Positions 1,809 through 6,334 of a stretch of DNA of 64,000 nucleotides are shown here, piece after piece; position 1 is the stretch's first letter; every line of letters starts with the position of its first letter. The position numbers and the translations under genes are program-made. Source of the DNA: Cloacibacillus evryensis DSM 19522 (GTDB lineage Bacteria > Synergistota > Synergistia > Synergistales > Synergistaceae); assembly GCF_000585335.1 (NCBI RefSeq), contig NZ_KK073872.1, positions 254,001 through 318,000 of the forward strand, in the 5' to 3' direction. The notes under the pieces were generated by a model. The model ran no database searches and was not told the DNA's origin. It saw only the letters and a list, made by a program, of their open reading frames with translations.

Positions 1809-2588
1809 TTAGAACGCGGCGACGATCCCCTTCGGCACGAGGTTTTTATTGATGTATTCTTTGACTTCCTTGGAGTTGGCGGCCTTTACAAGCGCCTTCA
1901 CCGCGGGGGTGTCTTTATCCGCGCCGCGCACGACGAGGACGTTCGCGTAGGGGGAGTCTTTGCCCTCGATCACGATCGCGTCTTTCGCGGGGATCAGGCC
2001 GGCCTCGACGGCGAAGTTCGTGTTGATGACGGCGGCGTCGACATCCTGAAGGGTGCGGGGCAGCTGGGCGGCGTCAAGCTCGCGGATCTTGAGGTTCTTC
2101 GGGTTCTCGGTGACGTCCTTTGCCGTAACGAGCTCTCCGGCCTTGACCTTGATCAGGCCGCTCTTTTCAAGCAGGCGCAGCGCGCGGGCGCAGTTCGTCG
2201 CGTCGTTGGGGATGGCTACCTGCGCGCCCTTCTTGAGCTCGCCTATTTTCTTGATCTTCTTTGAGTAGAGTCCGAGCGGCTCGATGTGGATCTTCGCGAC
2301 CCAGGCGAGGTCGTAGCCCTTCTCTTTGTTCGTATTCTCAAGGTAGGGCACGTGCTGGAAGAAGTTCGCGTCGAGGGCCTTTTCGGCGAGCGCGGTGTTC
2401 GGCGTCACATAATCGGTGAATTCGACGATCTTGAGGTCATAGCCCTCTTTGGCTACGAGCTGTTTGACGACGTTCATGATGTCCTTATGCGGGAATGGGG
2501 TGACCCCGACCTTGATCTCTTTGCCGGCGGCGAGGGCCGCGGTGGGGATGATCAGTGCTGCTAGCAGTGCGAGTGCGATTTTTTTCAT
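1809..2588 (-). CDS. metQ: Methionine ABC transporter substrate-binding protein (NlpA family)
   Basis: 259-residue NlpA/MetQ-family binding protein. A signal peptide (KKIALALLAALIIPTAALAAG) is followed by the family motifs VGVTPFPHKDIM, FTDYVTPNTALAEKALDANFFQHVPYL and VAIPNDATNCARAL. Unlike many MetQ proteins there is no lipobox cysteine, so it should be a free periplasmic protein, which suits a diderm. It is the last gene of metN-metI-metQ on the minus strand, about 100 bases after metI, with AAAGGAGAG upstream of the ATG. It binds methionine (probably D and L forms) for the MetNI permease. The operon is probably controlled by the leader at 4337-4536. Confidence 0.92.
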   Translation of the reverse strand: MKKIALALLAALIIPTAALAAGKEIKVGVTPFPHKDIMNVVKQLVAKEGYDLKIVEFTDYVTPNTALAEKALDANFFQHVPYLENTNKEKGYDLAWVAKIHIEPLGLYSKKIKKIGELKKGAQVAIPNDATNCARALRLLEKSGLIKVKAGELVTAKDVTENPKNLKIRELDAAQLPRTLQDVDAAVINTNFAVEAGLIPAKDAIVIEGKDSPYANVLVVRGADKDTPAVKALVKAANSKEVKEYINKNLVPKGIVAAF

Positions 2589-2690: not shown

Positions 2691-3326
2691 TTACCTGATC
2701 TTCTCGTAGATGTAATTTCCGGCGTACTGGATCACCTGAACGATCACGATCAGGATCGCGACGGAGTAGACCATGACGTCCGTCTGAAAGCGGTTGTAGC
2801 CGTATTTTATCGCCAGGTCGCCGAGTCCGCCGCCGCCGACGACGCCCGCCATCGCGGAGTAGCCGAGGAGGTTTATCGCGACTATCGCCCAGTTGAGGAC
2901 TATCGCGGGCATCGCCTCTTTGATCATCACGCCGAAGATTATCTGTGCGGTGGAGGCCCCGAAGGATCTCGCCGCCTCGACGACGCCGCGGTCGACCTCA
3001 AGCAGGCTGCCCTCCATGAGGCGCGCGACGAATGGGGTCGCCGCGATCGTCAGCGGTACGATCGAGGCGGTGCTGCCGATCGAGGTGCCGGCGATAAGGC
3101 GCGTCAGCGGGATTATCGCGATCAGCAGGATGATGAAGGGGAAGGAGCGCAGCAGGTTCACCGCCACGTCGAGCACGCCGTAGACGGCCTTGTTCGGCTT
3201 CAATCCGTTGGGGCCCGTTATTATCATCAGGATCGCCACGCCGGAGCCGAATATCCCCGAGAAAAGGGTCGACACCGCCACCATGTATAGAGTTTCCCAA
3301 AGCGCCGCGGCAAGCTCACTGCCCAT
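2691..3326 (-). CDS. metI: Methionine ABC transporter permease
   Basis: 211-residue permease with five or so transmembrane helices. It carries the MetI signature NLLRSFPFIILLIAIIPLTR and the EAA-type loop (EAARSFGASTAQIIFGVMIKEAMP) that contacts the ATPase. Length matches E. coli MetI (about 217 residues). Its start overlaps the end of metN by 11 bases, so the two are translationally coupled. It forms the inner-membrane channel of MetNIQ. Confidence 0.93.
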   Translation of the reverse strand: MGSELAAALWETLYMVAVSTLFSGIFGSGVAILMIITGPNGLKPNKAVYGVLDVAVNLLRSFPFIILLIAIIPLTRLIAGTSIGSTASIVPLTIAATPFVARLMEGSLLEVDRGVVEAARSFGASTAQIIFGVMIKEAMPAIVLNWAIVAINLLGYSAMAGVVGGGGLGDLAIKYGYNRFQTDVMVYSVAILIVIVQVIQYAGNYIYEKIR

Positions 3327-4284
3327 TTTTCATTACCTCCCAGTACATCTTGTTTTCACCAAGCCATTTTTCGATATTCGCCACGTCTTTATCGGCGACG
3401 TTGATGATGAGGAAGCCCATCACCGTCTCGCGGTACTTTTCGATGCGTCCGCCGACGATGGAGAAGTTTATGTTGAGGTCGCGCGCCATATTGGTGATGA
3501 TGCTGTCGTTGGCGACCTCGCGCGGGAACATCAGGCGGATGTTCGTGCCGGAGGGGATGACGGCGTAGTCGTCGGTGATGAGCTTGCGCAGCTCCTCTCC
3601 CGGGGCGAGGAAAAGCTTGTCCGTTTCGCCGGAGGCGACGATCTCGCCGCCGTCGAGGATGATGACCTTGTTGCAGATCATCTTCACGACCTCCATCTGG
3701 TGCGTGACGACGACGATCGTAACGTTGAGCTTCTTGTTGATATCCATCAGCAGTTCGAGTATCGAGATCGTCGTCTTCGGGTCGAGGGCGGAGGTCGCCT
3801 CGTCGCAGAGCAGTATCTCGGGATTCAGCGCCAGCGCCCTCGCGATGCCGACGCGCTGCTTCTGTCCGCCGCTCAGGTTGCGCACCTTCTCGTGCCTTTT
3901 CCCCGTGAGGCCGACCAGTTCGAGCAGTTCGTTCACCCTTGACTCGGCCTCGCTTTTAGGGGTGCCCCATACTTTGAGGGGGAAGAGGATGTTTTCAAAG
4001 ACATCCTTTCTGTTCATGAGGTTGAAGTTCTGGAAGATCATCCCCATGTCGCGCCGCAGCAGCTTCAGCTCTTTTTCGTCGAGGTCCCTTACCTCTTTGC
4101 CGCCCACGCGCACGCTACCCTCCGTGTAGCTTTCGAGCCCGTTGAGACAGCGCAGAAGCGTCGACTTGCCCGCGCCCGAATGGCCGACTATGCCGAAGAC
4201 GTCGCCCTTGTCCACTTTGAGGGAGATATCGGAGAGCACCTTATGGTCGCCGAAGTATTTCCCCAGACTGTTGATTTCGATCAT
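3316..4284 (-). CDS. metN: Methionine ABC transporter ATPase with C-terminal NIL sensor domain
   Basis: 322-residue ABC ATPase. Walker A is GHSGAGKST, the signature is LSGGQKQRVGIARAL, Walker B is ILLCDEATSALDP, and the switch histidine is in VVTHQM. Residues ~245-322 form the NIL domain that in E. coli MetN binds methionine and inhibits transport in trans. I take ATG 4284 as the start because GAAGGA lies about nine bases upstream; an in-frame ATG at 4305 has no ribosome site. It is the first structural gene of the operon, just after the leader terminator at 4337-4367. Expect transcriptional control by attenuation and enzymatic control through NIL. Confidence 0.94.
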   Translation of the reverse strand: MIEINSLGKYFGDHKVLSDISLKVDKGDVFGIVGHSGAGKSTLLRCLNGLESYTEGSVRVGGKEVRDLDEKELKLLRRDMGMIFQNFNLMNRKDVFENILFPLKVWGTPKSEAESRVNELLELVGLTGKRHEKVRNLSGGQKQRVGIARALALNPEILLCDEATSALDPKTTISILELLMDINKKLNVTIVVVTHQMEVVKMICNKVIILDGGEIVASGETDKLFLAPGEELRKLITDDYAVIPSGTNIRLMFPREVANDSIITNMARDLNINFSIVGGRIEKYRETVMGFLIINVADKDVANIEKWLGENKMYWEVMKNGQ

Positions 4285-4336
4285 GCAAAACCATCCTTCG
4301 CACAAAATCTTAAAATTTATAAAAGTTCCTCTTCAC

Positions 4337-4367
4337 AAAAAAAGACCGAGCCGCAGGGCCCGGTCTT
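4337..4367 (-). terminator. Intrinsic terminator (putative attenuator) in the metNIQ leader
   Basis: Read on the minus strand: 11-bp stem AAGACCGGGCC / GGCTCGGTCTT with loop CTGC and then a run of seven U. The only non-Watson-Crick pair is G-U in minus-strand RNA and would be A-C in plus-strand RNA, so the structure fits transcription toward metN. It lies 23 bases after the leader-peptide stop codon and about 55 bases before metN. Leader bases 4415-4422 (CAGGGCTC) can pair with the terminator's left arm and loop at 4354-4361 (GGGCCCTG) as an eight-pair antiterminator. Confidence 0.85.
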
Positions 4368-4389
4368 ATGATTTTACGCACGCGGCGCT

Positions 4390-4476
4390 CTAGGCGTCCG
4401 GCAAATCACAAGAGGAGCCCTGAGTGTACATGCACATCATCATGTTGTTGGCAAAATATCCAGCGCTGAATCTCAT
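4390..4476 (-). CDS. Met-rich leader peptide of metNIQ (28 aa)
   Basis: A 28-codon ORF starting at ATG 4476 and ending with TAG at 4390. It has a very strong ribosome-binding site (AAGGAGGAG, five bases before the ATG). Codons 10-16 read NNMMMCM, giving four Met codons in five positions plus a Cys. Together with the start codon, five of 28 codons are AUG. It lies between a consensus promoter (4508-4536) and an intrinsic terminator (4337-4367) directly upstream of the methionine transporter. The likely role is as a sensor ORF: ribosomes stalling at AUG codons when Met-tRNA is short would favour the antiterminator. The peptide itself probably has no function. The function is inferred; the ORF, Met run, ribosome site, promoter and terminator are all visible. 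Confidence 0.8.
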   Translation of the reverse strand: MRFSAGYFANNMMMCMYTQGSSCDLPDA

Positions 4477-4507
4477 GTCTGCTCCTCCTTCTTCAAATAT
4501 GGGCAAC

Positions 4508-4536
4508 ATTGTAGTAATGATTCGCGCGATTGTCAA
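4508..4536 (-). promoter_or_regulatory. Sigma-70 promoter of the metNIQ leader
   Basis: On the minus strand, TTGACA (4536-4531), a 17-base spacer and TACAAT (4513-4508). Transcription should begin near 4501, about ten bases before the leader-peptide ribosome site. Confidence 0.85.
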
Positions 4537-4626: not shown

Positions 4627-5289
4627 ATGAAGAAACGCATCGTCATAGCGGATGACCATAGGCTCGTCATCGAGGGCATAGCGGGGCTGCTGATTTCGAC
4701 CGGCGAGTACGAGATAGTCGGCCGCGCGGGCAACGGAGCCGAGGCCCTGCGGCTCATAAGGCGGCTCAAACCCGACCTTGCCGTGCTCGACATAACCATG
4801 CCGGAGATGGACGGCATAGACGCGGCGCGGGCGGTAAGGGCCGAACTGCCGGAGGTCAGGATACTCGTCCTCTCCGTACACAAGGATCTGCGCATGATAA
4901 TGGAGGTCATAAAGGCCGGAGCCGACGGTTACGCGCTCAAGGAGGCCGAACCCGATGAACTTATAAACGCCGTGAAGACGGTCCTCGCCGGCGACATATA
5001 CCTGGACTCAAAGATAACGACGCTGCTGGTGCGCGACTATATACGGAAGCTCAACATCCCGTCGATCCCGGAGGCGCGCCGCGGCGACCTTTCACCGAGG
5101 GAGTGCGAGATCGTGGCTCTCGTTGCCGGGGGGCTCGACGCCTACGAGATCGCAAAAAAACTCTGCATCACGCGCAACACTGTCGACGCGCACCGGCGCA
5201 ATATAATGCGGAAGCTCGACTGTAAAAACCTGCGCGAGCTCACGAGTTACGCGCTGTATTCGGGGCTGGTGAATCTTGATGAAGAATGA
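4627..5289 (+). CDS. NarL/FixJ-family response regulator
   Basis: 220 residues. The receiver domain (~1-120) has the acidic pair in IADDH, the phosphoacceptor Asp in LAVLDITMPEMDG and the Lys in ALKEAEPDEL. The C-terminal LuxR-type helix-turn-helix (~150-215) reads LSPRECEIVALVAGGLDAYEIAKKLCITRNTVDAHRRNIMRKL. The ribosome site is GGAAGGGG. The stop overlaps the start of the kinase at 5279, so they form a cognate pair. The target genes are unknown; the MFS gene at 6535 is the nearest downstream candidate. Confidence 0.9.
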   Translation: MKKRIVIADDHRLVIEGIAGLLISTGEYEIVGRAGNGAEALRLIRRLKPDLAVLDITMPEMDGIDAARAVRAELPEVRILVLSVHKDLRMIMEVIKAGADGYALKEAEPDELINAVKTVLAGDIYLDSKITTLLVRDYIRKLNIPSIPEARRGDLSPRECEIVALVAGGLDAYEIAKKLCITRNTVDAHRRNIMRKLDCKNLRELTSYALYSGLVNLDEE

Positions 5290-6334
5290 CGCCATACTCA
5301 ACGCGATCTTTACGAGCATTTACGCTCCCGTGGCGGTCTATCACGTAACGGGAGGCGGTGATGAACCTGTCGACCTTATCTACGACAGGGTCAACAGGGC
5401 TTATCTGGAACTCAACGATTTTGCGCAGGAAGAGATCATTGGCAGGCGGTACACCGAAGTCTGCCGCGACGAGACAGAGGAACCGTGGATGAAGTGTATG
5501 CTTAAAGTCGCGGCGACCGGTACCGCGGATTGCTGCGAAGGGATGTGCGTCCGGCGCACAGGCTATTATGTCAGCCTCCTGGCCTTTTCTCCCGTGGCCG
5601 GAAGGGTGGTGGCCATCGTCCGCGATCTGAGCGAGTGGCATAAAAGCAGGCTGAACCTGATCGAAAAACAGGAACTGCTGCAAAAGCTCACGACGCGGCT
5701 TACCCTCGCGGAGGAACGCACGCGCCGCGACATCGCGAACACGCTGCACGACGGCGTCGGCTTCGAGATGGTAACGATGCTGAACTCACTGCGGTCGCTG
5801 CGTGAAAAAACGGAGGGGCGCGACGCGAAGGAGCTGCTCGCCGACAACATCAGCCGCATGGAGAAGCTCATCGAGAACACTCGCTCCTTCACCTTTGAAA
5901 TAAGCCCGCCGCTGCTCTACGAGGCGGGGCTGGACGCGACGCTTGAGGCGTGCTGCGGCCACATGTTCGGGACGAACGGCGTCAAATGCGACTTCCGTTC
6001 GGAGGGGACCGAGATCCGCATCGCGGAGGATACGAAGGTGCTCCTCTATCAGATGGCGCATGAGATACTCGTGAACGTCGCCAAGCACGCGAAGGCGCGG
6101 AACGTACTCGTCATGACACGCTGGGGAGCGAAGAAGGTCCAGCTTTTCGTCAGGGACGACGGCGTCGGCTTCGACCAGTCCGGGGACAACCTCCCCTCCA
6201 CCACCTCCGGCATGGGGCTCTTCAGCATACGGGAGCGCATGTCGGCCATTGGCGGCCAGTTCAACGTCATATCGGAACCGGGAGCCGGCACGACGGTCAG
6301 CCTTATCGCGCCGATACGCCCCGCCGTGAGGTAA
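5279..6334 (+). CDS. Cytoplasmic PAS-type sensor histidine kinase (HisKA_3)
   Basis: 351 residues with no transmembrane helix. Residues ~8-120 form a PAS-like sensor module. The H-box of HisKA_3 is RRDIANTLHDGVGFEMV, and the HATPase_c domain has its N-box around HEILVNVAKHAKARN and G-boxes VRDDGVGFD and GMGLFSIRERMSAIGG. ATG 5279 is preferred over TTG 5276. The 11-base overlap with the regulator implies coupling. The lack of membrane segments suggests it senses a cytoplasmic signal such as redox state, gas or a small molecule; no cofactor motif is obvious. Confidence 0.88.
   Translation: MKNDAILNAIFTSIYAPVAVYHVTGGGDEPVDLIYDRVNRAYLELNDFAQEEIIGRRYTEVCRDETEEPWMKCMLKVAATGTADCCEGMCVRRTGYYVSLLAFSPVAGRVVAIVRDLSEWHKSRLNLIEKQELLQKLTTRLTLAEERTRRDIANTLHDGVGFEMVTMLNSLRSLREKTEGRDAKELLADNISRMEKLIENTRSFTFEISPPLLYEAGLDATLEACCGHMFGTNGVKCDFRSEGTEIRIAEDTKVLLYQMAHEILVNVAKHAKARNVLVMTRWGAKKVQLFVRDDGVGFDQSGDNLPSTTSGMGLFSIRERMSAIGGQFNVISEPGAGTTVSLIAPIRPAVR

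Follow-up and report, generated by a model that had tools for sequence, protein, structure and literature searches.

A putative leader-peptide attenuator with a methionine-codon run upstream of metNIQ, conserved in Synergistota

Control of methionine genes in bacteria is usually ascribed to SAM riboswitches, to T-boxes or to a repressor, MetJ for example. In Firmicutes, the T-box leaders found at such genes respond to uncharged tRNA-Met. The classic ribosome-mediated attenuators are the trp, his, thr, leu and ilv leaders of Proteobacteria. Like these, the element considered here combines a leader ORF carrying a run of cognate codons with mutually exclusive antiterminator and terminator structures, and stands before an operon for that amino acid. 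Unlike them, it concerns methionine (perhaps with cysteine), its segment 1 is apparently the Shine–Dalgarno (SD) sequence of the leader itself, and the leader stop codon falls within the apical region of its antiterminator, a long hairpin. The general features of ribosome-mediated attenuators are also covered in PMC8079986.

The closest system that our literature search returned is the metL leader peptide (MSTTSDRTPATEATTTPGARCMCRRMCAF) proposed upstream of metNIQ in Streptomyces lividans (PMC8079986). It too is a Met-containing predicted leader peptide before metNIQ, but it has a leaderless start, no recognisable terminator and only a few scattered Met codons, and is described from one genome (PMC8079986); compared by eye, the two share no sequence resemblance beyond Met and Cys codons. 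The cysteine leader peptides of Actinobacteria are likewise short ORFs with runs of sulfur-amino-acid codons before sulfur genes, but the runs are of Cys, not Met, and no conserved terminator hairpin accompanies the Mycobacterium cases (PMC1262725). A Flavobacterium study describes leader-peptide attenuation at amino-acid operons, methionine not being named in its main text (PMC9723704). As to sensors made of RNA, the SAM-I (S-box) riboswitch (RF00162) resembles the present element in controlling methionine genes through transcription termination but differs in sensing SAM by an aptamer, and is absent from the window analysed here and from its genome. A T-box is noted before a methionine transporter in Lactobacillus sakei (PMC2965389). 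Methionine T-boxes differ in binding tRNA directly, without translation, and the leader described below has no T-box match. The original prediction knew of no such attenuator in Synergistetes, and none for Synergistota was found in the literature searched, although most subscription papers were beyond reach.

Parts of the leader upstream of metN

The window (the whole stretch of 64,000 nt that was analysed, G000:C1:254001-318000) lies in a single-contig genome of 3.49 Mb. The promoter, ribosome site, 28-codon ORF with a Met run, terminator and metN that had been read from its minus strand are all present there, in the following arrangement.

4508..4536, minus strand: sigma-70-type promoter, TTGACA-N17-TACAAT, matching 11 of 12 consensus positions
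4481..4490, minus strand: SD of the leader ORF, AAGGAGGAGC, also the candidate segment 1 (anti-antiterminator)
4390..4476, minus strand: 28-codon leader peptide ORF, read by translation as MRFSAGYFANNMMMCMYTQGSSCDLPDA and a stop codon; leader ORFs are conserved in Synergistota
4429..4443, minus strand: regulatory codons ATG ATG ATG TGC ATG (MMMCM), of which MMMC is invariant in relatives
4410..4422, minus strand: segment 2 (B), CAGGGCUCCUCUU, 5' strand of the outer helix of the antiterminator, complementary to the leader SD too
4355..4421, minus strand: antiterminator hairpin, 4421-4415 with 4361-4355, then 4413-4403 with 4374-4364
4337..4367, minus strand: intrinsic terminator, stem 4367-4342, then a U tract to 4337
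3316..4284, minus strand: metN, methionine ABC transporter ATPase with NIL domain (PF00005, ABC_tran; PF09383)
2691..3326, minus strand: metI, permease (PF00528)
1809..2588, minus strand: metQ, substrate-binding lipoprotein (PF03180)

The leader SD is read as AAGGAGGAG at 4490-4482 (minus strand); metN starts at the ATG at 4284 and has its own SD, GAAGGA, at 4299-4294. A TTGACA...TACAAT-like sequence is also found upstream in the relatives L007, L008 and L010. The criteria of an attenuator that are met here are a leader ORF equipped with an SD, a run of cognate codons, a terminator between the ORF and the first gene, and an antiterminator that is exclusive with the terminator and begins just downstream of the regulatory codons. 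Genes resembling a response regulator and a histidine kinase (window 4627-6334, plus strand), recognised only by reading their translations, diverge from the metNIQ promoter.

When the leader was folded, the terminator stem was found to consist of 11 pairs including one G-U (-18.6 kcal/mol, z = -5.0), and the antiterminator hairpin reached -32.7 kcal/mol (z = -4.1), with none of 200 shuffles equally stable. The antiterminator of eight pairs that had been proposed is real, but it is just the outer end of this longer hairpin. Segment B sits just after the Met run and pairs with the 5' arm of the terminator (T5). In the minimum-free-energy structure of the whole leader, the SD (4489-4481) pairs with 4418-4410, and on the strength of this predicted pairing with B the leader SD can, in the folding model, act as an anti-antiterminator; the 80-nt fold joining SD and B reaches only z = -1.5, and both segments are under constraints of other kinds.

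Over the whole window no Rfam family attains its gathering score, and a relaxed threshold gave, for the leader region, only sub-threshold sRNA and snoRNA matches, with no riboswitch or T-box. The covariance models of the SAM riboswitches (RF00162 and others) and of the T-box had no match over the leader.

Conservation, spacing and regulated genes in Synergistota

The expectation that a Met-codon attenuator would be unusual does not hold inside Synergistota. We searched 188 Synergistota genomes with the pattern ATGATGATGTGYN{3,15}GGNYCYYC, which joins the Met run to segment B, and obtained 70 matches in 54 genomes and 32 of 63 genera; the reversed pattern, used as a control, had no match in the same 188 genomes, which puts the element far outside what chance would give. 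With the exception of L183, the 67 distinct loci examined are all short ORFs with an upstream SD-like match. Terminators were found for nearly all loci, within about 110 nt of the run and at about -15 to -32 kcal/mol; at L178 the ORF continues through the terminator. L183 is the sole locus of the 67 that looks like chance. Since the pattern itself fixes MMMC, the invariance of MMMC in this broad set is partly a matter of ascertainment. The leaders obtained by anchoring the search on the MetN protein are free of this bias of pattern choice, and there most close relatives of MetN within the family have a leader upstream, all with MMMC and GS and with a variable fourth Met. Conservation of the Met codons and of the terminator, on which the original prediction had staked itself, thus extends, as does that of the antiterminator, to leaders found through MetN alone. 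The other condition that would have refuted the prediction, a riboswitch hit in Rfam over the same bases, did not arise either. Among the exceptions are two MetN relatives (L020, L024) with no leader in the 330 nt inspected upstream, and L025, where metQ precedes metN and the leader is located before metQ. The fifth codon of the run varies across relatives (M, A, I, G and others) and the residues that follow, GS(S/P), hardly vary. The named loci carrying the leader of the window belong to Synergistota. The genome of the window itself holds a second MMMC leader (G000:C1:895163-895191, minus strand, L200), MYLINCSSIMYMMMCAHCGSSPEMAGA, before a metQ-like gene.

The spacing of these parts was measured in 65 distinct leaders. 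Between B and the final Met of the run lie 12 nt in 38 leaders and 15 nt in 23, two cases of 13 nt being an effect of pattern register (GGG TCC read one base late), and from B to the stop codon it is 19 nt in 50, 22 nt in eight and 16 nt in three. Both distances change in steps of three, so that the reading frame is kept, while the length of the N-terminal part lies anywhere between 8 and 20 codons. Substitutions in this N-terminal part show no codon-position bias (25/29/32), and the case for translation therefore rests on the SD, the open frame and the in-frame spacing. Outside the fixed MMMC, Met makes up 6.5% of residues before it and 5.5% after it, against an assumed background of 3%, and Cys 3.6% and 4.5%, against 1.5%; several leaders have a second MMMC run.

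The genes that first follow the leaders were classed by similarity clustering, and only representatives were put through family searches. They begin metNIQ at 24 loci, metQ-first operons at 18, metY (O-acetylhomoserine sulfhydrylase) at about 16 and metX at two; two further loci have a binding protein of the cystine-like or polar-amino-acid type. Single cases comprise a gene resembling a cysteine desulfurase, one resembling an acyl-CoA ligase, and unknowns. A phenylacetate-CoA-ligase-like gene stands behind an MMMC leader at L064:489-2000 (plus strand). At L164:1637-2923 (plus strand) an MMMC leader is followed by a 429-aa protein without a Pfam or NCBIfam match, possibly an unknown methionine gene.

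Base pairing, the proposed decision and other explanations

The 5' arm of the terminator changes along with segment B, which occurs in the classes GGCUCC, GGAUCC, GGAUCU, GGGUCC, GGCCCU and GGUCCC. The duplex of B with its own T5 averages -14.6 kcal/mol, against -11.8 ± 0.33 kcal/mol with permuted partners, and none of 5000 permutations, uncorrected for relatedness, was as low. This gain is large in the GGCUCC, GGAUCC and GGAUCU classes and small or absent in some others, and it is on such contrasts among the classes of leader that the support for pairing depends. The SD:B duplex is similarly stronger than with permuted partners (0 of 5000). When 56 diverse leaders were aligned with MAFFT, RNAalifold predicted no pairs, the likely cause being the poor quality of the alignment; a clade of 14 sequences was used instead, along with the energy permutation test. 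For these 14 metN leaders RNAalifold yields the same long antiterminator, with 94.7% of its cells paired compared with 35-48% in slid versions; covariation within the clade is weak when set against column shuffles, 14 to 150 of 500 being equally high.

Equilibrium folding of the full-length leader gives preference to the terminator whatever the state (mean 0.90-0.96). The choice therefore has to be kinetic, made by folding order and polymerase pausing, as is accepted for the classic attenuators. Because the full leader at equilibrium shows no switch, we analysed transcripts ending before the 3' arm of the terminator. With a ribosome masked on the Met run, the median probability of B:T5 pairing was 0.97 and exceeded 0.5 in 51 of 65 leaders; with the ribosome masked at the stop codon it fell to 0.00 (above 0.5 in 15 of 65), and B paired with the SD in 38 of 65. 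Such transcripts without a ribosome tend toward the antiterminator (median 0.75), from which it follows that untranslated RNA would partly read through and that the coupling of transcription to translation matters.

We propose that, where methionine is ample, the ribosome would clear the MMMCM run and reach the stop codon, covering the 5' strand of the antiterminator just downstream of B. Behind it B would re-pair with the leader's own SD, and the freed 5' arm of the terminator could then pair with the 3' arm, ending transcription before metN. Where methionine is scarce, the ribosome would stall on the ATG run just upstream of B, so that B and the nucleotides after it may form the long hairpin with the terminator 5' arm ahead of synthesis of the 3' arm; with this antiterminator formed, RNA polymerase would continue into metN. 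Translation of the ORF, stalling on methionine starvation, and the actual termination and readthrough are inferred in this scheme. What is observed are the parts of the element, how they are conserved and how constantly they are spaced, the matched pairing of B with T5, and a fit of the codons to the genes regulated. The element is very probably a leader-peptide transcription attenuator that reads charged tRNA-Met, possibly tRNA-Cys too, and controls metNIQ; there are no expression, term-seq or ribosome-profiling data. Comparison between genomes supports the ribosome-mediated attenuation by methionine originally put forward, in that the codons match the genes regulated, the response to methionine being inferred and not demonstrated.

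As the invariant unit is MMMC, cysteine may be sensed as well, and it could be argued that the element is chiefly a sensor of cysteine or of sulfur amino acids in general, the Cys codon being decisive and the Met codons secondary. The invariance of the Cys codon after the run and the enrichment of Cys elsewhere in the leader peptides would agree with this, as would the mixture of Met and Cys in Bacteroidota leaders and the position of the L178 and L195 leaders, which precede a gene resembling a cysteine desulfurase or one for a cystine-like binding protein, but we hold it to be unlikely, with three or more Met codons per Cys in most leaders and with methionine uptake and homocysteine synthesis as the main regulated functions. 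That same Cys, which methionine sensing alone does not explain, and the near invariance of MMMC and of the following GS(S/P) could also point to arrest by the nascent peptide, in which the peptide with MMMC would halt the ribosome once a small molecule, for example methionine or SAM, occupies the exit tunnel, in the manner of TnaC or SpeFL, and not when charged tRNA-Met runs short. The residues before the run, which would occupy the tunnel, differ among leaders, and the lack of N-terminal codon-position bias argues against a peptide read in this way, so that the criterion of conserved tunnel residues is not met; moreover, the conservation after the run is accounted for by the base pairing of B, and extra Met codons gather around the run, as codon counting would favour. 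Nascent-peptide arrest is on these grounds improbable.

A leader that is structured and placed before methionine genes, a common setting for SAM-I riboswitches and T-boxes, might instead be a sensor made of RNA only, a new SAM or methionine riboswitch or a T-box that contains an ORF by chance. We give this very little credence given that no Rfam match covers the leader, the distances from run to B and from B to stop vary almost only by multiples of three, and the SD, start and open frame are kept while the sequence drifts; in seven loci, besides, a true SAM-I riboswitch is a separate element upstream of the leader. No experiment shows regulation, and one might see in the element no more than a small terminator and a decoy ORF that regulate nothing, but its conservation across 32 genera with matched pairing and agreement in gene function makes such an arrangement hardly credible. 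An attenuator reading charged tRNA-Met is the explanation that we retain.

SAM-I loci, other phyla and significance

SAM-I is present in 113 of the 188 Synergistota genomes and was found neither in the genome of the window nor in its congener. In seven loci (L162, L163, L169, L170, L193, L194 and L209) a SAM-I aptamer lies directly upstream of an MMMC leader; the six whose sequence was read have an aptamer-leader gap of 77-115 nt holding a terminator-like hairpin and a T tract, weaker in L170. The tandem loci show a promoter-like sequence upstream of the aptamer and a terminator belonging to the MMMC leader itself. SAM-I precedes a metN-like gene in another Synergistota genome (L032).

Outside the phylum, Bacteroidota and a Clostridia MAG have sporadic MMMCM leaders that are accompanied by a terminator and by a segment complementary to its arm; the downstream genes of L071, L082, L097, L128 and L076 were named by reading the sequence, without a family search. 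In the Bacteroidota loci L071:5479 and L082:3855, MMMCMC leaders (..NMMMCMC[CR]GSFLQKERS and a stop codon) precede sulfite-reductase-like genes, and the segment after the run matches the terminator arm. A Gramella locus (L097:400-950, plus strand) has two tandem Met leaders before metY, the second of which (MRTRVIVNMMICRMMMHMCMRYMESYYQNRRI and a stop codon) is equipped with a terminator of its own and with a 10-nt complement of the terminator arm, and in Butyricimonas (L128) an MMMCM leader precedes an aspartokinase-like gene. In the Clostridia MAG (L076, minus strand, near 1069-1093), MLHIAVNNMMMCMRRGRALRTDQVF with its stop codon and a terminator stand before a metF-like gene, and in a Vampirovibrio MAG (L061:2770, plus strand) an ORF with MMSMMMCMPGSSGG, a Synergistota-like motif, is accompanied by a terminator.

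In the regions upstream of 30 Bacteroidota metY genes the sense strand holds 11 short ORFs rich in Met (3 or more Met within 9 codons), distributed over seven loci; the other strand has none, and the expectation from shuffles is 0.05. Met/Cys-rich short ORFs (e.g. MNNTVVNKMMMCCKMPMCIPIYCCRK and MKNNNKMCCMMMMCMCAPP) and terminators are found upstream of metY at L245-L250 and L268. These Bacteroidota leaders differ in sequence from those of Synergistota, and to judge from this difference a separate origin is likely. In 247 genomes of one Bacteroidota order the exact MMMCM pattern gave mostly background matches and one real leader, so the exact motif is not general there.

The mechanism is known; the amino acid, the phylum and the tandem arrangement with SAM-I appear to be new. 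A broader proposition, the chances for and against which we judge to be even, is that these leaders form a widespread undescribed class of Met (and Cys) attenuators across Synergistota, separately arisen in Bacteroidota, with the SD as anti-antiterminator, and that in some lineages they lie behind SAM-I so that SAM and charged tRNA-Met gate one promoter. The element corresponds to no Rfam family, and with it many short ORFs now without annotation could be named. A phylum-wide Met-codon attenuator fills a gap among the amino acids known to use leader peptides, and Synergistota, which are genetically little studied, gain a clear methionine regulon. Loci at which SAM-I is followed by a Met leader are natural candidates for RNA gates with two inputs, telling SAM, the end product, apart from charged tRNA-Met.
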